IMG/VR virus record: IMGVR_UViG_3300018080_000708
Coordinates: 1 to 20,002 of that record
DNA length: 20,002 nt
Source of the DNA: a virus
Direction: 5' to 3' (one strand)
The notes under the pieces are model-generated. The model was not told the origin of the DNA. It was given only the letters and a program-made list of their open reading frames with translations, and ran no database searches. Of the stretch, positions 1,764-17,549 are shown one piece after another. Position 1 is the stretch's first letter. Every line of letters starts with the position of its first letter. Made by a program: the position numbers and the translations under genes.

Positions 1764-2746
1764 TTTAATTCCTCCTCAATTATTCTGTTGACTACACTTG
1801 AAACTGATTCCTTAAAATATTCACCAAGGTAATGCTCCCTTTGGAAATCTAAAAGTTTGTGATAGGTATGATACCTAGATATTGACTTTACTTTTTCTTT
1901 TAGTTCTTTTAAAGTTTTCCAAACGAATCGATCATCTACGGGTAGATCGGGCGTTGTAGCGATTTGACTTTCATGGATCATTACAAGGCGGCTTGCATAA
2001 ATTGACTGGGCCACCCTTGGAGTCATGTAGTGAAAATGATGCCATCTATGATCAGTTATATGAATTTGAAAGGCTCCCAATCTAAACATATTCAAAAGGT
2101 CAATTGGGTAGGTGAATTCCCTATAAGCATAAACAGGATATTCGTTCCATTTTGCCCCTACAAATACTATGTTTTCCATATCCGTAATTCCAAGATCTTT
2201 TAGAACTCTAAATCTTCTGGACTTTCTATCACCAACATAGCAGAAATCGAAGGAAGCTCCAGGATCTTGTACGAGATTAATCCATTCTAGATTAGCATAG
2301 CTACTTTGCAACACATATCTAAATTCAGCTTCCGGGTAATCCCTATTCACATAGTACATCGGATAAAATTGATTTGTAAGAATTCCAAAATTCTTTATTG
2401 TTTCCGGATGGTACATAAATAATTTCCTGAAATCAATTCTCAAATCATCCTCATCAATCGTTAAGAGCCGCACAGGATGCGTGCTTCCGAGCTTTCCAAG
2501 TTTGATCAACGAGTCCTGCTGCTGTTTAAAATAGAATCCGCCTTTTATCAAAACCAGACCATCTTTTATTGAGTCAATATTTTGTTGGGTTACACAGGAG
2601 CATTCGAATCCCCGTCTTTCAAATTCCCTATAAATACTTATAGCCTTTAATCCTTGATTTTTTATTTTATGTAGACCCTTCCAAGTTTGAATATAATTAT
2701 AGATATAGTTATTGTCCAAACTTACAAGAGTCAATTTAGATTTCAT
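1748..2746 (-). CDS. GT-B-type glycosyltransferase, CgeB-like
   Basis: A protein of about 332 residues with a C-terminal half like CgeB/GT-B glycosyltransferases: a [20 protein letters not shown] segment opens the nucleotide-sugar-binding Rossmann domain, followed by IVFVGAKW, a [13 protein letters not shown] stretch and the [19 protein letters not shown] segment typical of the donor-binding site. The sugar donor and acceptor are unknown. I chose the start at 2746 rather than 2767: GGAGG lies exactly 6 nt before it, inside the end of the primase gene, whereas the upstream ATG has no ribosome site. The gene overlaps the primase stop. Its place between a primase and a fused oxidoreductase/dUTPase suggests DNA or nucleotide glycosylation, but capsid or host-surface glycan work is also possible. 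Confidence 0.7.
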
Positions 2747-5558
2747 CATCTTCCTCCATCCCTTCATTAGTCAATTCATCACTGCGATCTAACATTTTGA
2801 GCAAGGCTATAAATGCGGGTGTCTTCGAATACCCACGCCGTGCTTTTTTGACCGCATTTTTCCTTACGAAGATTCCCATAATCACTCTAGTTTGGTCCAG
2901 CGACATGTCAGTCCAATCGCTTAAATCAAAATGAGTGAAAGTCGCGGACTCCAACATAGACTTTACCACATCCTTAGCATAAGGAAGTTCCTTCAACTTC
3001 GAAATAATTTCATCGCTATCCCTAAGTTCTGTTTCGCTCTTTATCATTCTTGAGTAATCATAATAGCCCATGACATCATTTGAATAGATAGCATTTAAGA
3101 ACTTCGAAACAAATTCAACGTGGCATCTTCTTATGATCAGGGTTACTCCATCCTTATCGGTCGAGAAAGTTCGCACTGCAAGCGCACTTGCGAGCCTCGC
3201 TATTTTAAGTCTTTGATCCGCGGCCTCTACTAAGGGGATATTTGACACATAGGTGGCTCCCATCTGCGACGCAGTTTCCAGGATCTCTGTAACTGCATCA
3301 TCTTCGAATTTTATTTGATCTATCTTTCTTGACCAGCCCCATAAAATCAAATTTTTACAAAGCTCTGAAGTATGCGTATGATCCGACTTTGGTCGATCCG
3401 CATCGCTGATATTTATCATGGATTTTGAAACTTCACCACTTGCTACCAAGATAGCCATGTCAAATCTTCGAATGTCCTCCAAAGATCCAATCAACTCTTT
3501 AACTGCCTCAACCCCATAATTGTAGGCCAGCAACTTCTTGTCGGTTCGTGGGTTTGAAATCCACAATAATCTTGTTCGTGCATTTGTTCGGGCCTTCTCA
3601 ACTTTTGAAACTTCCGCGATTCCACTCGACCTAGTTTCTGTCAATTTTCCGATGATCTCTGTTGAAAGGCCCTTGACTTCTTCAAGAATTACGAGTCGTT
3701 GGTCATTCAACGTAATCACACCCCAAGTCACGAACCATCTTTTTGAAACTTCCTGGAGCCCTCCGATCAAGCCGGCTACTGATGCACCTTTCGCGTCAAT
3801 TTTTTCTCCAAGCCCATAGTGATCCTTTAATCTGGAAACGCACTCTGATTTCCCTTGCCCAGAATCACCGAGTACCAACCCTTCAGCCCATCCTTTGATT
3901 CGTCGTCCTTGAAATGGAAGATAGAGAACTGAATGGTAAATCAGATCGTAGAACAAATGGAGCGAACCTCTTTGATAGATTCTTGTCACGTTCGCTTCTA
4001 GATCCAAATAGAGTTGATCGAGCTTTCTATTGATAGCATCTTCAGTCCAGTCATCTGGTTTAAAAATATCTAGTTCTTTCTTCATTCTCGGAGTTAGCTC
4101 AAAGCAAGCTAAGGAGTCAAGGGATGCCTCGGCGTCATACATAAGGAGCGTAGCATACTGTGTCTTTGGTTCAGGAACAACGCGAGCTTTGATTTTGTAA
4201 GTGATGTTCGTTTCCAGTTCACCGCCAATATAAAAGGCTCTCCTTACGACGTATTCATCATCCGGAGAACCTATTTGAATTTGCGGAATCAATCGAACCT
4301 CTTCAATGTTCACAGTTTTAGTTATCTTTAAAGCGGCACCAGGGCACAAGGCCGGAATCCGTGCGGCTTTCCGCAATACCTTGTGAAGGGCTTCCGTTGA
4401 AATTCCAATCAGCTCGAGCAAAATTGGATGGCGATCTTTGATCACTATTTCGGACTTACCCTTCATCAAATTGATTGGACAATATCCGCAACAATCCTTG
4501 GACCCCTTATCACAGGTAACTGCAAAAGACTGCGGAATTAAATACGGGGCTGTGTCCTTCGCTGATACAACGACTTCGCACGATACCAATTTTAGGTAGT
4601 ATTCTGCTCTTGAAGTTTTCTGAAGACTTATTTCAATCGGGTCATCATCTTCCGCGAACTCGTCTTCAAGTTGCTGGACCTCCTCTGGTTTCCACTCGGT
4701 GGCCTCATTCAAAAGCTGTTGGATATCGGTGGCCGTATGCCCGAGCTCAATAATGTAATCAGTGATATCTCCATTTGGAATTTTCTTTGGATCAATTGGA
4801 AGGTCTACGATCTTCACGGAAGTGGCAAGATCATAAATTTCCTTAGCAACCCTTTTGGCACCGTTGATTCCAGCTTGATCAATATCATACATGATATAGA
4901 CTTGTTTATCTTTAAATAGATTATTCCAATCATGTGACCAGGTACTCGCACCGCCGGTAGGAGCGATAGCATTGAATCCAAGTTGATTTAATAGCAGTGC
5001 TTTAAATTCCCCTTCAGCAATTATTATAGGATCGCTCTCAGCCGCACGGATCGGATACAAGCGGCGTTCACCAAAACCCTTTTCATTGATCATTTTGTAT
5101 TGCTTGGACTTGGCTGACCATTTCCTTATGTTCAATACATTTTCATTTTGATCAAAAATTGGGATAGTGAATCTCGTCCCGTCGAAGCCTATCAAATATT
5201 TTATTACTGTGTCTTTATTTAAACCTTGTCTTTCTTCAAGAGTTTTTAATGCTGAAGAATTCCTAAGGAGATCGCCATGCGCTGTGTATACAGCATCCTG
5301 CGGAATTCCACCACCTGCCCCAGTTTTATTAGCGTGAGCTACGATCACCTTTCGAGTGGTTTTCATAGCCCCCGCTAATAAAGTAAAAACATCGCCTTTT
5401 GAATTGCAACCAAAACATCTGAATACCGCCTTGTCCTCATTTACAAAACAGCTTGGGTCTTCTTCGTCATGGAATGGACAGGAGACTCTAAGTTCTCCTC
5501 CGCCCATGTCTTCATAAGAAACTTCGTATTCTTCAAGTAATGCTTTTACGTTTGGCAC
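2736..5558 (-). CDS. DNA primase (CHC2 + Toprim) fused to MCM-like AAA+ helicase
   Basis: A 940-residue replication protein. Residues 27-51 hold a CHC2 zinc ribbon (C27, H30, C48, C51). The Toprim domain shows E182 in AEGEFKAL and the D225-x-D227 pair in MYDIDQAG. Residues about 320-490 look like an MCM N-terminal/OB region with a zinc cluster (C349, C356, C357, C360). The AAA+ part has Walker A GDSGQGKS at 564-571, an AGLIGG segment at 595-600, Walker B LVILEE at 622-627, sensor SNPR at 668-671 and an RRFD motif at 697-700, the MCM order rather than the DnaB/RecA order usual in phage primase-helicases. It should prime and unwind at the fork. The start is GTG with GAGG 7 nt upstream, overlapping the Cys-rich gene by 26 nt. 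Confidence in primase is very high, in MCM-like good. Confidence 0.93.
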
Positions 5559-5832
5559 GCCGCTTCCTCATATATTCTTTCATGTACTCGTTTCGGTCTT
5601 CAGGGGAGTCCCAATCAATTCCAGATAAATTAGGTCTGCCCTCACCGGGCCATGACTCCTCCCTGTGTACACAGAACTCACAAGCCGATCGCGGAAGGTC
5701 GCATGTGATGCGGCTTTGGTAATATCGAGAGCACCAATAATATTTCGATCTTCTCGATGGTGTCCAGTATACACAGAGAGGGCATTCTTTAGGCCCGCGC
5801 TCCCTGCATCCTCCTTGAGAGCAGTTCTTCAA
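5533..5832 (-). CDS. Small cysteine-rich, likely zinc-binding protein
   Basis: A 99-residue protein with eight cysteines (C4, C9, C17, C20, C34, C44, C51, C54), including CPLC and CEFC pairs, and a very basic C-terminal tail ([10 protein letters not shown]). This pattern fits one or two zinc knuckles and nucleic-acid binding. I do not recognise the family. The only plausible start is TTG at 5832, 3 nt after the upstream TAG, with GGAG about 11 nt before it, so the start is uncertain; a downstream start would lose the first cysteines. It overlaps the primase GTG by 26 nt, so it may cooperate with the primase-helicase, which is inference. Confidence 0.65.
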
Positions 5833-10394: not shown

Positions 10395-10423
10395 ATTATA
10401 GCATAAAGAAAAACATTTGTAAA
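10395..10423 (-). promoter_or_regulatory. Early leftward sigma70-like promoter
   Basis: On the minus strand -35 TTTACA (10423-10418) and -10 TATAAT (10400-10395) are separated by exactly 17 nt, and TGC directly before the -10 gives an extended -10. Expected start is near 10388, so the RNA would begin just before helix P1 of the leader. It should drive the whole leftward operon. Confidence 0.85.
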
Positions 10424-10463
10424 GCATTAAATTTCGATTCTGAAAATTATTTTTTATGGTGAT

Positions 10464-10509: not shown

Positions 10510-10534
10510 TACCGTGTTGTATTTTCAGAAAAAC

Positions 10535-10675
10535 TGCAAGAACGGCATATGTGTTAAAATAGGTGCACCTCGGCCGGTTTAGCATTTTAAGCCGAAATCG
10601 GGTTTTTGCATCTCCGGCTCTGAGCTCGAGCGGACGGCGAGGTGTACATATTTTAACACGGGGGCCGTTCTTGCA
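10535..10675. repeat. Large imperfect inverted repeat, 38-bp arms
   Basis: The left arm 10535-10572 pairs with 10638-10675: 12 perfect pairs (TGCAAGAACGGC), a 4x4 internal loop, 11 perfect pairs (GTGTTAAAATA), one mismatch, then 10 pairs including one G-T. The 65-nt middle holds smaller dyads such as GCTC...GAGC near 10617-10631. The arms extend weakly outward through GAAAA/TTTTC. Candidate roles: cruciform replication origin, paired protein-binding sites, a structured RNA, or a non-autonomous mobile element. An open frame lying across it (minus strand, 10708 to 10490) has an unnatural composition and I do not accept it as a gene. Confidence 0.85.
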
Positions 10676-10690
10676 AATTTTCGCGTTTTT

Positions 10691-10719
10691 TCGCCGATTT
10701 TTAACCAATAGAATTGATA
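10691..10719 (+). repeat. Direct repeat copy B flanking the large inverted repeat
   Basis: Second copy of the repeat at 10481-10509, on the other side of the inverted repeat, in the same orientation. Confidence 0.55.
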
Positions 10720-10882
10720 AGTCGGAATCCTAAGGAGTAGGAGGTGGAATATAATAATTAGTTCTGGGCCTTTTCTTATCTCTTATCTTATTGTTCTTCT
10801 TAGCTTATACTACTTTTCAAAACGCAAACTTTTTGCCATTTCTTTTTGTTCAAAATTATTTTGTAAAATCGAAATTTAAAGC
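10720..10882. other. AT-rich non-coding stretch, possible unwinding element
   Basis: No plausible gene. It contains one copy of the over-represented octamer (10730-10737), a purine-rich GGAGTAGGAGGTGG run without a usable ORF behind it (GTG gives only five codons), a pyrimidine tract with tandem TCTTATC (about 10774-10787) and very AT-rich DNA up to 10880. This would suit duplex opening next to an origin. A weak plus-strand promoter (TTGCCA 10833-10838, 17 nt, TTATTT) is possible. Confidence 0.4.
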
Positions 10883-10911
10883 TTGCTAACTGTGCGGCTT
10901 TGTGCTATTAT
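10883..10911 (+). promoter_or_regulatory. Rightward promoter of the head-gene operon
   Basis: -35 TTGCTA (10883-10888), 17-nt spacer, -10 TATTAT (10906-10911) preceded by TGC (extended -10). The predicted start near 10918 lies only about 6 nt before the terminase ATG, so transcripts from it would be nearly leaderless. Alternatively the true late promoter lies further upstream. Confidence 0.65.
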
Positions 10912-10923
10912 AAGCTTAGGGCA

Positions 10924-11379
10924 ATGAGAAACCAAGACACACATAAAATTGATAACGATGCTCGTCTAAACATGTTCCGCATGTACGCGACGGGGTCAAC
11001 CATGAAGGAGATCGCTGAGTATTACGACGTCACGGAAACCTCAGTTAGGAACTATAGAAAGAAAGATTCATGGGACGACCGAGTGGAGCGTATCCGCGAG
11101 AAGGCATTTAAGAAGGTTGAGAAAAAGATTGTCCTCGACACGGCCGTGACAACCCAGAACACCTTAGGCATAATTCAAAAATTCAAGGACAAGCTCAACG
11201 AGCGGTTGATGAACATAAAGCCCTCGTCCATTCCAGTAAATCTAATAGGTCAAATCGTGGCGATGAGCGAACACGAGACCGAGTTAATTAATAAGTTAAA
11301 GACAATCGAGGATACGGGCCCAGTTAGCGAACTTAGCGACGCCAAGCTGGCCATGATATTGGGTGATGTAGATGAATAA
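10924..11379 (+). CDS. terS: Terminase small subunit
   Basis: A 151-residue DNA-recognition subunit of the packaging motor. Residues about 18-50 form a helix-turn-helix (MYATGSTMKEIAEYYDVTETS) followed by the YRKKDSWDDR segment common to phage small terminases; helical residues 60-130 would oligomerise. I chose the ATG at 10924 because an upstream in-frame TTG at 10900 falls inside the promoter. It has only a weak AGGG two bases before the ATG, so initiation is unusual. The end overlaps the large-terminase ATG by 8 nt, and the assignment is confirmed by that neighbour. Confidence 0.88.
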   Translation: MRNQDTHKIDNDARLNMFRMYATGSTMKEIAEYYDVTETSVRNYRKKDSWDDRVERIREKAFKKVEKKIVLDTAVTTQNTLGIIQKFKDKLNERLMNIKPSSIPVNLIGQIVAMSEHETELINKLKTIEDTGPVSELSDAKLAMILGDVDE

Positions 11380-12085
11380 ACATCAAGCAGCAATGGAAAT
11401 TGCACGCAGGCATCCAACTGCGTTCGCGGCTACTGTGGATCCTGCCCACTGTCGTGACTACCGACCAGCTTGGTATCACTATCTCCTTGGTGATGATCTA
11501 AAACGAGTCGCTTTGACTGCTGCGGGAATACCCTGTGAAAATCCAATTGATAGATTGATTGTTGTAATGCCTCCTCGACATGGGAAAACCGAGACTGTCA
11601 CGGTCCGCTTTCCTGTATGGGCGATGTCCGAGTTTGGACTCGACATAATGGCACTTACCTATGGAGCGTCCTTAGCGGTTGAGTTTGGAACAAAGGGAAG
11701 GAACGTAGTTGAATCTCCGATGTACCAAAAGTTATATCCGCATCGCCTCAAGTACGGATCCAGTGCGAAAACGGATTGGCGGCTGGACAACTATGCCAGG
11801 TACACTTCAATTTCTTTAAAAGGTTCGGTCACAGGGAAAGGTGCCCCGTTATTAATCCTTGATGATCTTTATAAGAACTCGGAACAAGCTGATTCAGCAG
11901 TGTATCGTGAATGGGTAAAGGATCAGTATTCAGCGGTTGCTTACACTCGCTTGGAACCGCCAGGTTGCATCGTCGCTTGCATGACACATTGGCATAATGA
12001 TGATTGGATCGGATGGCAACTTCGTGAGTTTGAAGATGAGGGTTGGGTCATCCGGCATCTGTGCGCACTTCAGGAGGCGGCGTGA
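11372..12085 (+). CDS. terL: Terminase large subunit, ATPase half (split gene)
   Basis: A 237-residue ATPase domain that powers DNA packaging. Walker A is PPRHGKT at 67-73, Walker B with catalytic acid is LLILDD at 160-165, and a coupling-type motif CMTHWHNDDW lies at 203-212. It ends at TGA 12083-12085, just where terminases usually continue into the linker before the nuclease; the nuclease follows at once in another frame. A normal protein of this family has both domains in about 480-540 residues, and the two frames together would give about 512. See the junction feature for how the halves may be joined or coupled. Confidence 0.93.
   Translation: MNKHQAAMEIARRHPTAFAATVDPAHCRDYRPAWYHYLLGDDLKRVALTAAGIPCENPIDRLIVVMPPRHGKTETVTVRFPVWAMSEFGLDIMALTYGASLAVEFGTKGRNVVESPMYQKLYPHRLKYGSSAKTDWRLDNYARYTSISLKGSVTGKGAPLLILDDLYKNSEQADSAVYREWVKDQYSAVAYTRLEPPGCIVACMTHWHNDDWIGWQLREFEDEGWVIRHLCALQEAA
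12072..12085 (+). promoter_or_regulatory. Ribosome site and GTGA stop/start at the terL split
   Basis: AGGAGG at 12072-12077 stands 4 nt before GTG 12082-12084, which overlaps TGA 12083-12085 of the ATPase frame. The layout fits reinitiation of a separate nuclease protein, or an SD-stimulated -1 frameshift that would join the halves. There is no classical X-XXY-YYZ slippery heptamer here. A single-base sequencing or assembly error is the third possibility. Confidence 0.6.
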
Positions 12086-12906
12086 CACTTCAACTAAAAT
12101 ACAGGGCGGATGGATTCTACGCACCCTTCGTGGAAGATTACGAGGACGTGCGGCCCTATCCGGCTTTGTGGCCACAGCGATTCAATGAAGAACAGCTGAG
12201 AAAAATTCGACGTGGTGTTGGACCAAGAACTTGGGATGGTCTATATCAAGGAAGGCCCTCGGGAAAAGGATCCAAAATGTTTCCCATGGAATGGTGGGAA
12301 TATTATGATCAAATTGAAATCGAGGAAGTCGGCTCTACGCCCGAAGCTCTCCGATTCAAGGAAATAGGACTTTCCTGGGACACCGCATTTGAAAAAGGGG
12401 AAGCTAATGACTACAGTGTATGCTCAATTGTGGGATTTACAGGATACTATTGGTATCTTCTCAATGTTGTCCGCGGCCGGTATAATTTCCCAGAACTAAA
12501 AGCACGATCGAAGGATCTATATGAATTTTGGAAAAATTGGGCAACCATACGAGATGGAAAACTGGCGAGCCATAGAGTTTCTCACGAAACAAAAGTGAAG
12601 GTTCTTATCGAGAAAAAATCTAGTGGACATTCCCTAATCCAAGAGTTGCGGTTAATCTTTGGGAAAAATATCATAGCCTATACCCCAAAAGGATCGAAAG
12701 AGGTTCGAGCCGCAAGTACACAAGGAATACTTGAAGCGGGCCGAGTTAAACTTCCGATGAGTGCCGCATGGGTTCCGACCTTCACAAATGAGTTTGATGA
12801 ATTCCCGAACGGAGCGCACGACGATCAAGTTGACTCCTTAGTACAATATCTAAGATGGACTCGTCGAGGTGGAAAAGCCGCGATTGGTTCTGGAGCTGGA
12901 GGATAA
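12082..12906 (+). CDS. terL: Terminase large subunit, nuclease half (split gene)
   Basis: A 274-residue RNase H-like nuclease that cuts concatemeric DNA. Near the start, ALWPQRFNEEQLRKIRRGVGPRTWDGLYQGRP is the usual linker between ATPase and nuclease. Catalytic acids fit D100 (SWDTAFEKG), E177 (VLIEKKSSG) and the HDDQVDSL cluster at 246-253. I take GTG 12082 as start, with AGGAGG 4 nt upstream; TTG 12043 is possible but lies wholly within the ATPase frame and has no ribosome site. It is intact and conserved throughout, so it is not decaying, which favours a functional split or a frameshift over a pseudogene. Confidence 0.88.
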   Translation: MTLQLKYRADGFYAPFVEDYEDVRPYPALWPQRFNEEQLRKIRRGVGPRTWDGLYQGRPSGKGSKMFPMEWWEYYDQIEIEEVGSTPEALRFKEIGLSWDTAFEKGEANDYSVCSIVGFTGYYWYLLNVVRGRYNFPELKARSKDLYEFWKNWATIRDGKLASHRVSHETKVKVLIEKKSSGHSLIQELRLIFGKNIIAYTPKGSKEVRAASTQGILEAGRVKLPMSAAWVPTFTNEFDEFPNGAHDDQVDSLVQYLRWTRRGGKAAIGSGAGG

Positions 12907-12909
12907 AAT

Positions 12910-14418
12910 ATGGGAGATAAAACTCCATTTGCTGTAGGGACCGATAGATTAGAGGTTGTTAGGTGGGCTGATTTCCAGAAACATGCAATGAAGGAAAGCG
13001 GCACAGAATCCGGCTCCCGCAGCATGAAGAATGATTCCTTCGCTGAGGTCTATTCCACTTACGAATTGGTTCAACCTCCACGTGATTTAACTACGTTAAC
13101 AAGTTTGATTGAGATCAATACGTGGCATATGCGAGCTGTGAAAACTCGAGCGGCTGACACTGTTGGTTTGGGATGGGGATTAAGAGCAAAGAAAGAAAGT
13201 GCCAGCGAAGTTGATAAGGAGCGAGCGGAACAATTCCTTAAGTCGCGATCCTTCGTCAACTTCAAACCCGAAGGTCTCGATCGAATGCTACGGATGGTCC
13301 AGCAAGATTTAATTTCAAATGGGAATGGGGCTCTTGAGTTTGTCTATGAAGATTACCTTGAGGACAATGAACTCGATTCTTTAAACTATATTCCGTCACA
13401 CACAATCCGGGCCCACAAGGACATGAATAAGTACTGCCAAATAAGGGCCAACAAAAAAGTGTGGTACAAAAAGCCCGGGTACATGTATGATGTGGATTAC
13501 CGAGATGGGACTGAGCACCCACTCGGATCGCTGGAAGCCGCATATAGAGCTAGCATCCTGCTTTTCATAAATGAGCCAACTTTCAGGTCCTCTTATTATG
13601 GATTACCGGATATCATTCCAGCACTCGGCGCAATCTATTCCATGATATCAATTCGGAATTACAACAACTCATTTTTTGAGAATCATGGGGTACCAGAGTA
13701 TGCTATCTATATTACTGGCGATTATGACCTTGGTGATGTTGACCCTGATAGCGGAGAGTATCAAATCATAACAACGATCAAGGATCACCTCGCACTATTA
13801 GCGGCTAACCCGCATTCTCCTTTGATCCTTGCGCTGCCATCTCAATCACCGGAAGGGAAAGTTGACATTGAGTTCAAACCGCTTTCGGTTGAAGTGAAAG
13901 ATGGATCTTTCTCAATTACAAACAAAGATGACCGCGATGAGATTCTATCTGCTCATGGAATTCCACTGTATAGATTAGGAATCGTGGAAACGGGCTCACT
14001 GGGCGGCTCAACGGCTGAGGAATCTACTGACATTTACAAACAATCAGTAATTGCCCCAGATAAAAACCGGATGGAGACTATTGTTAATCTAATGGTCCTA
14101 ATCCAAGGGTTGAAAATAGAGGGCTGGGATTTTTATCTCGAAGAGATTGATACATCAGATGAGGATCAGGAATTAAAGGTCGGAGAATTCCTATGGACCA
14201 AGGGTGGGATAACTCCTAATGAATTGAGAGTTATATTTGGTGGAAGGTTTAACTTGGAGGCTGTTGAAGGAGTCCTTGGAATGGATTACCATTACGTGAA
14301 TAATGTTCCTCTAGAATCCGGACCAGTAATGCAGGACGAAGTTATAGAAGCTGTAAAAGATTTCCACGGAGAACTACTCGGCATGGCAAGGAAGGAAAGA
14401 CATGATAGACTTATTTAA
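12910..14418 (+). CDS. Portal protein (PBSX/HK97-type)
   Basis: A 502-residue portal, the dodecameric channel at the capsid vertex through which DNA enters and to which the terminase docks. It follows the PBSX-type pattern: an N-terminal YELVQPPRDLTTLTSLIEIN segment, KTRAADTVGLGW, then a long middle with LLFINEPTFRSSYYGLPDI and a GVPEYAIYITG segment, and the C-terminal ILSAHGIPLYRLG and GGSTAEESTDIYKQSVI. Length and position directly after the terminase are typical. GGAGG stands shortly before the ATG, 4 bases after the terminase stop. Confidence 0.93.
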   Translation: MGDKTPFAVGTDRLEVVRWADFQKHAMKESGTESGSRSMKNDSFAEVYSTYELVQPPRDLTTLTSLIEINTWHMRAVKTRAADTVGLGWGLRAKKESASEVDKERAEQFLKSRSFVNFKPEGLDRMLRMVQQDLISNGNGALEFVYEDYLEDNELDSLNYIPSHTIRAHKDMNKYCQIRANKKVWYKKPGYMYDVDYRDGTEHPLGSLEAAYRASILLFINEPTFRSSYYGLPDIIPALGAIYSMISIRNYNNSFFENHGVPEYAIYITGDYDLGDVDPDSGEYQIITTIKDHLALLAANPHSPLILALPSQSPEGKVDIEFKPLSVEVKDGSFSITNKDDRDEILSAHGIPLYRLGIVETGSLGGSTAEESTDIYKQSVIAPDKNRMETIVNLMVLIQGLKIEGWDFYLEEIDTSDEDQELKVGEFLWTKGGITPNELRVIFGGRFNLEAVEGVLGMDYHYVNNVPLESGPVMQDEVIEAVKDFHGELLGMARKERHDRLI

Positions 14419-14686
14419 TTGGATAGGAGAAGATCCTGAAAAAGCGATGATCGTATTTACAACGATAGTAGCAATGCTGCTATATGTGATTAAAGCCATC
14501 GCCAATATAAACAAGGTGATGAGCGATGTAATTGAGGAACGTGAACCACCTGGAACAAAAACTTTTAAGAAACCGATCAAGTCGGCTATCCAAGCGGCTG
14601 AGCTCGTTTCAAAAGATCCACTCACTAGGTTATTTTTCAAACGCATGGCTAAAAAGGCCAAGCAGAGGTTCGATGTAAAGAAATAA
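14402..14686 (+). CDS. Small protein with one membrane segment
   Basis: A 94-residue protein. Residues about 15-37 (AMIVFTTIVAMLLYVIKAIANI) form a likely transmembrane helix; the rest is basic (KRMAKKAKQRFDVKK). I do not recognise it. GGAAGGAAAG precedes the ATG, and it overlaps the portal end by 17 nt, so it is read with the head genes. A membrane protein between portal and minor head genes is uncommon. Confidence 0.75.
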   Translation: MIDLFNWIGEDPEKAMIVFTTIVAMLLYVIKAIANINKVMSDVIEEREPPGTKTFKKPIKSAIQAAELVSKDPLTRLFFKRMAKKAKQRFDVKK

Positions 14687-16246
14687 ATGTTCGACTTGTA
14701 CACAGCTTTAAACCAAACCGCGGATTTCATCGCTGAAAAGCAAATGAACGTGACGGAGGCCACCAAACTCCAAACCCTCCTTAGCAAGAGGATCAAAACT
14801 CTATTTGATTCCGCGGCCAAGGATACAATTAAGGAGCTACGGAAAAGATCCGTACTTGATCCGGCCACTGGTAAGCAAGTTGCAACAAGGATGAAACAAC
14901 TTCAAAGTGGAATAGCAGAACAGGTATATGAGCAGATAAAAAAAGAAATGAATATGCCTTTACCAGCGACACAGGAATTAAGGCAGAAAGTTTTTCAAGC
15001 ATCTGAGCGAACAATGGACGCTGCTATAGGAGATGTAACTAAGACATTAGCTAAAGCATACGAAGATGGTGTTGGTGTAGCGGAAGCGGCTAATAGGTTG
15101 AAAAAAGATTTTAATCACCTTTCCAATTTCCAATTAAAGGTAATAGCTCGCACTGAGATGCACGGGGCTCAGAATGTCGCACGGTTAGCGAACATGCAGA
15201 ACAGCACAGCAGAATATAAGCAGTGGGTAGCTGAAGAAGATCCGGAAAGAACTCGGCCTTCTCATTTATACACAATGGATGGTCAAATAGTTCGAGTAGG
15301 GGATCTTTTTAGTAATGATCTTAGGTATCCAGGTGATACCAATGGTGATATAGATGAGTGGATAAATTGCAGATGTCGGATGGTGGCTTTTGTAATGCCA
15401 TTAGGGTTTAAAGCCCCAAATCAATCCTGGTTCTATGAGGAGGATTTGATAGAGATTGATGAAAAAGGAGATAAAGAATTTAAGTTGGAAGATGAAGAAT
15501 TAGTTCCTAGTGATCCAAAGAAGGTGAATTCTTTAGTAAAGAAAATTTCAAAGGATAGAATAAAGGTTAAAGGTTCTGATATAGAGGAAAAAGAATTAAA
15601 AAGAAAAATTAGTTCTTGGCTTGGAGATGGATCAGAAAAGAGTCTCACAGCTTTAAATAAAAATAAGGTTAATTTTTCTACTGAGAAAAAAGGATCTTTA
15701 GGTACTAATATTGGTGGGCATTATAGACCAGCTACAAAAACTGTGTCCTTTGTGGACTACGATAATGATATTCTTACTAGAGCAATATTTAATCATGAAA
15801 CTTTCGGTCATGGATTAGATGACGCTCTTCAAATAACTGGTAAAATTAAAAGTGGATCCGGAAGTAGACCTAAGGCTGGAAAAGGAAAGGCTATGAATGA
15901 TCTAAGAGCCTCTTTTAGAAAAGCCTGGAAAACACAAATAAAGGCGATAGAGAATACGGAAGCCTATAAATTGAAACCGGCTGAAGGGATTACTGGAAGA
16001 GTACGATCGAGGAAAGCCGGACTATCAGCCGATGCAAAAAGGGATCTCAAATGGTGGAAAAAGTTAGATCCTGAAAAAGCATTTATTTCTAGATACGCCT
16101 GTTTAAATGAGTCTGAATTTTTCGCCGAAGCTATGAAGGATTATATGAACGGCGGAAGTAGATTAAAAAATAAATTTCCTGACTTGTATAAGAATATAAA
16201 AGATGCTTTAATGCAGGGTAAAGAGTTCGAAGAGGTTTTATATTAA
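14687..16246 (+). CDS. MuF/SPP1 gp7-type minor head protein with C-terminal lethal-factor-like zincin domain
   Basis: A 519-residue fusion. Residues 1-235 are the head-morphogenesis domain: VIARTEMHGAQNVARLANMQ (152-171), R190-x-SH193 with MDGQIVRVGDLF, and INCRCRMVAF (226-235), the usual MuF ending. Residues 250-330 are a charged linker. Residues 345-510 look like a zinc peptidase: H370-E371-T-F-G-H375 followed by GLDDAL, then Y470 and N474-E475-S-E477-F-F-A-E481. The last block strongly resembles the anthrax lethal factor segment carrying its Tyr and third zinc ligand, with the same Tyr-to-Glu spacing. The zinc motif has one extra residue (HExxGH, as in dipeptidyl peptidase III) compared with HExxH. 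From about 15440 on, G+C drops to around 25-30%. The pattern is that of MuF polymorphic toxins carried in virions. The start ATG follows the preceding TAA directly, with no strong ribosome site. Confidence 0.88.
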   Translation: MFDLYTALNQTADFIAEKQMNVTEATKLQTLLSKRIKTLFDSAAKDTIKELRKRSVLDPATGKQVATRMKQLQSGIAEQVYEQIKKEMNMPLPATQELRQKVFQASERTMDAAIGDVTKTLAKAYEDGVGVAEAANRLKKDFNHLSNFQLKVIARTEMHGAQNVARLANMQNSTAEYKQWVAEEDPERTRPSHLYTMDGQIVRVGDLFSNDLRYPGDTNGDIDEWINCRCRMVAFVMPLGFKAPNQSWFYEEDLIEIDEKGDKEFKLEDEELVPSDPKKVNSLVKKISKDRIKVKGSDIEEKELKRKISSWLGDGSEKSLTALNKNKVNFSTEKKGSLGTNIGGHYRPATKTVSFVDYDNDILTRAIFNHETFGHGLDDALQITGKIKSGSGSRPKAGKGKAMNDLRASFRKAWKTQIKAIENTEAYKLKPAEGITGRVRSRKAGLSADAKRDLKWWKKLDPEKAFISRYACLNESEFFAEAMKDYMNGGSRLKNKFPDLYKNIKDALMQGKEFEEVLY

Positions 16247-16518
16247 TGTATAAAATATATAAAAATAAAGGTTTTGTAGGAGAAGTAGAATTTAATCCGG
16301 AAGGATTTGAGTTTTCAACTTCTAATCGTAAACTGGAATCTTTTCTAAGTGACATAAAAAAATCTGGGATATTAGATATTGACCTAGGATCTAACTATGA
16401 TGAAGAAAATAATCTATCCGATGATATAGAAGTAATCTATATAAATAAAGAAAATAGAAAAGAGCTATTAGATAGACTACGAAAAAATGGGTTTGTAATA
16501 AAGGGGAAACAAAAATGA
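16246..16518 (+). CDS. Small AT-rich protein, candidate immunity protein for the MuF toxin domain
   Basis: A 90-residue acidic/basic mixed protein (MYKIYKNKGFVGEVEFNPEGFEFS...) with no recognised domain. Its ATG overlaps the toxin-gene stop as TAATG, and its stop overlaps the protease start in ATGA. G+C is about 23-30% in sampled lines, as in the toxin domain and unlike the ~50% protease and capsid genes after it. Immediate downstream position, small size and shared base composition are what one expects of an immunity gene of a polymorphic toxin; there is no sequence proof. It could instead be an unrelated small cargo protein. Confidence 0.75.
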   Translation: MYKIYKNKGFVGEVEFNPEGFEFSTSNRKLESFLSDIKKSGILDIDLGSNYDEENNLSDDIEVIYINKENRKELLDRLRKNGFVIKGKQK

Positions 16519-17549
16519 GTGAAACCGCATTGGCAGGACCGTTCGCTTTTAAGAACAGCAAGAAACAAATTGCAACTGCTCCGGTACTCGTTCCAGGAGA
16601 GCCGGACTCTGACGGCGAAATAGTAACTGCTGAAAAGATCGAGGAAATTTCTTTAAAGTTCATGGAGGAGTATCAGATGATTGATGGCCTCCATACTTTC
16701 AATCGGGTGGCCGTTCCAGTTGAGAGCTGGACTTTGAGAAAACCGGAAACCTTTACATCGGTCAAAGGTGATCTGCTGGAATTACCCGCTGGCACTTGGA
16801 TGATGTCAGCTAAGGTGAAGGATAAACGAATTTGGGAAGGAATCGAGTCAGGAGATTTTCAAGGCTTCTCCATAGCCGGAATCCGTGCGGCTGACCTCGA
16901 ATCCGCATTAAAGAGCCAAACCCCGGTTCAAAATCTTGAGTCTGCCTTCAAGGGCAAAACTCTGTTGAGTGATCTTGGACCGGATTGGATAGCGGCCGCG
17001 GTATCAGTCGTAGATGAACCTGCGGTTTTTAAATCAAAATGGATAGCGATCAAATCAGCAAAAAAGAGCCCGCGTGCTATAACGTGGCTCACAGATCTTG
17101 TCAAAAAAGGCAAACAGGAGGATGAAATGAAAGAAGAAGATGTCAAAGCGATCGTGAATGAAGCGATCAAAACTGCTCTTGAGCCGGTCGCCGGATTAGG
17201 TGAATCAATCAAGAGTGTCACGGAAAAAGTGGATGCGATGCAGGCGTCAATGAAGGCGGCTGATCCTCCTGAGAAAAAGGAAGAGGACCCGCCCAAGAAA
17301 AAGGAAGAGGATCCAAAAAAGGAAGAGGATCCCTCTGCGAAAAAATCGGAAGACGGCTCAGAATCCGAACTTGCGGCAGTCAAAGAACAGCTCGAGAAAC
17401 TTTCCAGTAAACTCGATGCGGCCACCAAGTCACGGTCCCTTCCGGGGCAGGACTCAAATGACAATGAGGAGCCGGCCTTCAAATCGAGAACTTCAAACGC
17501 TCCCGACCGCGATCTTTTCGGGTGCGCAATCAATAGAGGAGGGAACTAA
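16515..17549 (+). CDS. XkdF-type prohead protease with C-terminal scaffold
   Basis: A 344-residue protein. Residues 20-125 match the XkdF-like serine protease: VLVPGEPDSDGEIVTAEKIE, H60 in DGLHTFNR as likely catalytic His, and S119 in GDFQGFSIAG as likely nucleophile. It would process the capsid and scaffold during head maturation. From about residue 205 it becomes a scaffold: helices with heptad-like pattern (ESELAAVKEQLEKLSSKLDAATKS) and a Lys/Glu/Pro repeat region (EEDPP, EEDPK, EEDPS, bases about 17281-17335). Overlap with the preceding gene is ATGA, and capsid follows at once. An internal start for the scaffold is listed separately. Confidence 0.88.
   Translation: MSETALAGPFAFKNSKKQIATAPVLVPGEPDSDGEIVTAEKIEEISLKFMEEYQMIDGLHTFNRVAVPVESWTLRKPETFTSVKGDLLELPAGTWMMSAKVKDKRIWEGIESGDFQGFSIAGIRAADLESALKSQTPVQNLESAFKGKTLLSDLGPDWIAAAVSVVDEPAVFKSKWIAIKSAKKSPRAITWLTDLVKKGKQEDEMKEEDVKAIVNEAIKTALEPVAGLGESIKSVTEKVDAMQASMKAADPPEKKEEDPPKKKEEDPKKEEDPSAKKSEDGSESELAAVKEQLEKLSSKLDAATKSRSLPGQDSNDNEEPAFKSRTSNAPDRDLFGCAINRGGN
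17127..17549 (+). CDS. Internal in-frame start: separate scaffold protein
   Basis: AGGAGG at 17116-17121 stands 5 nt before ATG 17127, in frame with the protease gene (residue 205). It would make a 140-residue protein (MKEEDVKAIVNEAIK...) comprising only the scaffold helices, the KEEDP repeats and the coiled coil. The same arrangement is known for lambda C/Nu3, where a scaffold is translated from inside the protease gene. The site is as strong as the real starts around it, and it sits exactly at the domain boundary. Expression is not shown. Confidence 0.6.
   Translation: MKEEDVKAIVNEAIKTALEPVAGLGESIKSVTEKVDAMQASMKAADPPEKKEEDPPKKKEEDPKKEEDPSAKKSEDGSESELAAVKEQLEKLSSKLDAATKSRSLPGQDSNDNEEPAFKSRTSNAPDRDLFGCAINRGGN

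Follow-up and report, generated by a model that had tools for sequence, protein, structure and literature searches.

In the DNA of a tailed virus analysed here, 20,002 nt of the IMG/VR record IMGVR_UViG_3300018080_000708 (the window), the large terminase (TerL) is encoded by two genes instead of one. The ATPase core lies in a first open reading frame (ORF1), and the lid helices and the nuclease lie in a second (ORF2) that overlaps it. Sequence comparisons and predicted structures indicate that this two-gene terminase is real, that it is derived, and that it is probably functional.

Organization of the terminase genes

The packaging region of the window contains the following features:

10924..11379, + strand: probable small terminase (TerS; Phage_terminase small subunit, 1.2e-05), whose 3' end shares 8 nt with the start of ORF1
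11372..12085, + strand: ORF1, gene for the TerL ATPase core (ASCE), from profiles, motifs and model
12072..12077, + strand: AGGAGG, Shine-Dalgarno (SD) site for ORF2, 4 nt before the GTG
12082..12085, + strand: GTGA, overlap of the ORF2 start and the ORF1 stop, from the sequence
12082..12906, + strand: ORF2, gene for the TerL lid helices and RNase H-like nuclease, from profiles, alignment and model
12163..12258, + strand: stretch of ORF2 (residues ~28-59) matching the TerL lid subdomain, from comparison with D6E TerL and alignment
12910..14418, + strand: portal protein, intact (Phage_portal, 2.3e-19), 3 nt after ORF2

According to the sequence and the list of open reading frames, ORF1 extends from an ATG at 11372 to the TGA at 12083-12085 (237 aa), and ORF2 from the GTG at 12082-12084 to a stop ending at 12906 (274 aa from the GTG). 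The mechanically defined frame of ORF2 opens earlier, at a TTG at 12043 for which a well-spaced SD is absent. The locus thus lacks a continuous frame for a one-chain TerL: the ATPase and nuclease domains are in different frames, ORF2 being in the -1 frame relative to ORF1, with a stop between them. The original prediction had described these coordinates, frames, overlap and SD site, all of which were confirmed, and its length of about 512 residues for a fused product agrees with the ~511 aa computed for the two parts combined. The neighbouring packaging and head genes are all open and intact.

Both halves were identified by profile searches. ORF1 matched phrog_4758 (1.2e-40) and phrog_38 (4.6e-38), with only a sub-threshold match to Pfam Terminase_6N. 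ORF2 matched phrog_38 (2.2e-50), phrog_5573 and, above cut-off, Terminase_6C (1e-14) and TIGR01630 psiM2_ORF9 (1e-16). Since ORF1 covers positions 258-470 of phrog_38 and ORF2 positions 480-707, together they make up one ordinary TerL. ORF1 carries a Walker A motif (PPRHGKTE), a Walker B motif (LLILDD) and the motif CMTHWH. Among 30 aligned sequences, the Walker A/B residues K72, D164 and D165 are invariant, as are the nuclease metal ligands E177, D248 and D251, while D100 is nearly so. The claim that both halves are intact with all catalytic motifs therefore holds: they are complete by profile and their catalytic residues are kept.

Structure predictions gave the same picture. The ORF1 model (pLDDT 92.7) superimposed on the ATPase parts of PhiV-1 TerL (Z 21.4, rmsd 3.0, 216 aligned residues) and T4 gp17 (Z 17.6, rmsd 3.8, 207 aligned residues), and the ORF2 model (pLDDT 80.6) matched the TerL nucleases of D6E, herpesviruses, RB49 and G20c at Z 15-16. 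ORF1 is the ATPase core, and ORF2 the nuclease part, of a Terminase_6/psiM2-type TerL.

The break separates the ATPase core from the lid and nuclease

Alignment with fused relatives places the break directly after the last strand of the core (LPAL/LPAI), in a linker of variable length that precedes LWPxRF and that is, in the window, among the longest of the aligned set. In the ORF2 model, pLDDT is below 50 for nearly all of residues 1-24; helices are then predicted at 36-46 and 48-56 with pLDDT of about 60-80, and the nuclease fold starts at about 61-65. The positions of the lid and linker have been described for D6E TerL (PMC5727402), and in a structure comparison D6E residue 199 aligned with residue 28 of the ORF2 model. 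The model and this residue correspondence indicate that the lid helices travel with the nuclease. ORF2 begins before the lid helices, and the cut separates the ATPase core from the lid plus nuclease. The original prediction had placed the split between ATPase and nuclease; the division into two genes stands, but the boundary is not quite there, the lid helices of the ATPase domain sitting in ORF2.

In D6E TerL, Y213 of the lid is in contact with the arginine of the P-loop, and the lid also contacts the ATP site in other terminases (PMC5727402). If a contact of the Y213 type holds here, ORF2 would have to dock on ORF1 for normal ATPase coupling.

A sequencing error at the junction is unlikely, and nothing is inserted there

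One missing or extra base in the assembly, an option raised from the outset, would account for everything if the real TerL were continuous, as it is in distant relatives. However, a second contig, IMGVR_UViG_3300017963_001408, is identical to positions 10700-17067 of the window (100% over 6,368 bp, junction included), which makes a sequence error unlikely. An IMG/VR scan for both junction flanks with 8-24 bases between them found this contig only. The ORF1 frame is still conserved at about 12063 (RHLCAL, for RLPAL in relatives); a frame-restoring indel would be confined to about 12063-12085, where no base run is longer than two. We consider an assembly error highly improbable.

An intron or intein at the junction found no support either: nothing is inserted, the two genes overlapping by 4 nt, and neither an Rfam match nor repeats were detected there.

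Probable reinitiation rather than frameshifting

The overlap of stop and start, with an SD site before the second start, has the anatomy of coupled termination-reinitiation, which appears to be the simplest reading of the junction. SD-like sites and short overlaps are common among the genes of this virus. In a set of 170 fused relatives, an SD-like 5-mer followed 4-9 nt downstream by a start, in any frame, occurs in the linker-coding stretch of only four; the start shares the TerL frame in one of these, and one carries AGGAGG in that stretch. The comparison was set up once the window had been seen and is supportive only.

The alternative is a programmed -1 frameshift near 12082, in which the internal SD would act as the stimulator and a fused TerL of normal length would result. 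The -1 relation of the frames fits such an event, the SD sits upstream, and the fused product would align well with relatives. However, none of the 14 heptamers in the ORF1 frame starting at 12043-12082 (region to 12088) is of the slippery type X_XXY_YYZ, and the 121-nt junction RNA is no more stably folded than shuffled sequence (z 0.0), so that programmed frameshifting is unsupported. The last codons, GCG GCG, would re-pair poorly one base back. The SD spacing of 4 nt is typical of initiation, whereas at SD-stimulated -1 sites such as dnaX it is about 10 nt or more. Frameshifting, which the original prediction had listed among its options, is therefore very unlikely.

The split is derived in this lineage

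Relatives were collected by three protein scans of IMG/VR, giving 180 loci in all, including the window and its twin contig. TerL is uninterrupted and in a single frame in 169 of them, and the split at this junction is present only in the window and the twin. The fused relatives are distant (about 26-40% identity), and the loci were chosen by similarity, so that the count shows that the split is derived and does not give its exact rarity. Single-protein queries of IMG/VR with the portal and with the ATPase, in search of closer relatives, returned only the identical contig; among IMG/VR matches, no diverged relative shares the split. Relatives with one continuous frame, proposed beforehand as a refutation, were thus found in number, but all are distant; because the only close relative shares the split, it is derived rather than false. 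From these comparisons the split appears real but derived in this lineage, and confined so far to one virus population. The portal protein is nearest to those of the methanogen viruses Drs3, PhiF3 and psiM2/psiM100 (30-36%), followed by Streptomyces phages.

Several other loci were considered as possible splits. In locus L125 the break is inside the nuclease domain, on a contig with ambiguous bases, and is probably an assembly error. Eight of the 180 loci matched the nuclease part only, and those that were opened proved fused, chimeric or intein-bearing. Locus L008, which is the same contig as L042, has a different type of ATPase fused to the nuclease, in L028 the nuclease is joined to a diverged ATPase, and L083 carries an intein; L019, L023, L085 and L086 have little or no upstream sequence.

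Two of these loci are of interest in themselves. The L008 protein (4380-5564) is a chimeric TerL, in which an unrelated-looking ATPase half is joined to a nuclease half that closely resembles the window's; it is evidence that the two TerL halves recombine. Related TerLs with large intein-like inserts in the ATPase domain, at two different places, were found in L073 (1147-3732) and L083 (2-1906).

Comparison with other split or interrupted terminases

TerL genes in two consecutive overlapping parts have been described in Arthrobacter cluster AY phages (PMC12820723). In BillyTP, BlueShadow and RadFad, as in the window, complete ATPase and nuclease parts are encoded by consecutive overlapping genes of the packaging module, between TerS and the portal gene; in BillyTP the ATPase gene is at 600-1679 and the nuclease gene at 1663-2259. 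The proportions differ, the cluster AY ATPase gene encoding 359 aa and the nuclease gene 198 aa. The cluster AY halves match phrog_19179, phrog_21277 and phrog_9, whereas those of the window match phrog_4758, phrog_5573 and phrog_38, which denotes a different TerL lineage. The cluster AY cut apparently falls after the lid, a helix-like stretch preceding the nuclease staying in the ATPase gene, whereas the window is cut before the lid. When the two cluster AY halves were searched against PDB sequences, no TerL was matched, and their break point is therefore a reading of the sequence. The fused TerL of Streptomyces phage Dubu is 48% identical to cluster AY over the nuclease part. Because cluster AY and the window belong to different TerL families and are cut differently, the split arose more than once, with different break points. 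A two-gene TerL is thus already known from a few phages; what differs here is the place of the cut and the TerL family.

Single-chain TerLs of the psiM2_ORF9/Terminase_6 type (Drs3, PhiF3, Pam1, phiAO1 and the 169 loci) agree with the window in their domains, in their motifs and in the order of genes beside the portal, but are in one continuous frame; several named phage TerLs that we inspected are annotated as single genes. Interrupted TerL coding sequences are also known from Jug phages, with group I introns (PMC12363816), and from Mic1, with an intein (PMC7156551). Those pieces are rejoined by RNA or protein splicing, in contrast to the window, which has no insert and no match to an Rfam family. 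A literature search on split terminases found only the intron-interrupted case.

Two protein families resemble the separate halves. PHROG 4758 (243 positions, ATPase only) matches ORF1 residues 6-234, and PHROG 5573 (250 positions, nuclease only) matches ORF2 residues 28-265, both nearly end to end. Their members may be TerL genes split at about the same place, or fragments.

In Streptococcus phage CHPC926, two adjacent features (12-206 and 282-1415) are both named terminase large subunit. The window ATPase matches across both (42-719), with the break near the N terminus, and this TerL gene may have a broken frame or a wrong annotation close to its start.

A probable two-chain terminase

We infer that two proteins are made from one mRNA by coupled translation and assemble into a working, non-covalent TerL, which we consider likely. 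A single-chain TerL of the psiM2_ORF9/Terminase_6 type would have been divided by a change of frame within the flexible segment that follows the last strand of the ATPase core. Ribosomes would end ORF1 at the TGA and, helped by AGGAGG, the same ribosomes or fresh 30S subunits would start ORF2 at the GTG, the overlap of stop and start coupling the output of the two genes. The two chains would then assemble on the portal: through the lid helices near its N terminus, the ORF2 protein would dock on the ATPase core, and the nuclease would be carried along. Each half models as the expected fold, and the break lies in an indel-rich linker in which chain lengths differ; two-gene TerLs are present in isolated cluster AY phages. 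Against this reading, the core is cut from the lid, so that function requires docking in trans. Of the three options first proposed for the junction, a true two-protein terminase is the best supported, its separate products being predicted from the gene arrangement.

A recent inactivating frame change could also have produced this locus. The terminase would then be broken, the population or provirus defective, and the SD and GTG coincidental, in keeping with a split that is confined to one near-identical population when all other relatives are fused. However, every catalytic residue is kept in both halves, the neighbouring genes have stayed open, the break is located in the only tolerant linker, beside a strong SD and start, and the same allele occurs in two contigs. 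We therefore regard inactivation as unlikely.

There is still debate over how TerL transmits force from ATP hydrolysis and alternates between cutting and translocation, and several models give the lid a central role (PMC5727402). With a natural TerL divided between core and lid, the need for a covalent link could be tested directly. More tentatively, this virus might possess a working motor with the ATPase core on one chain and the force-transmitting lid element, together with the nuclease, on another. The coupling of ATP hydrolysis would then cross between chains that are not covalently joined, and core and lid-nuclease chains might be present on the portal in a ratio other than 1:1. For annotation and for phylogeny based on TerL, half-length TerLs need not be errors.

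Other features of the window

A very strong hairpin with 45-nt arms (10528-10682; 82% complementary, -74.6 kcal/mol, z = -10.2) is located just upstream of TerS, within the 670 bp that separate the divergent replication and packaging blocks. It has no Rfam match and is possibly a packaging site, a regulatory RNA or a terminator pair. It is flanked by a 60-nt inverted repeat (10395-10454 / 10852-10911, 73% complementary), each arm of which has an outward sigma-70-like promoter (TTTACA-17-TATAAT on the - strand and TTGCTA-17-TATTAT on the + strand). The two divergent promoters look as if they were mirror copies.

On the - strand, 2736-5558 encodes a primase-helicase in which a DnaG zinc ribbon and Toprim are joined to an MCM-type P-loop domain. 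On the + strand, 14687-16246 encodes a MuF head protein. Its C-terminal part bears a weak resemblance, below cut-off in both cases, to Peptidase_M90 and to an ATLF-type (zincin-like) domain; a zincin-like effector domain fused to MuF is possible.
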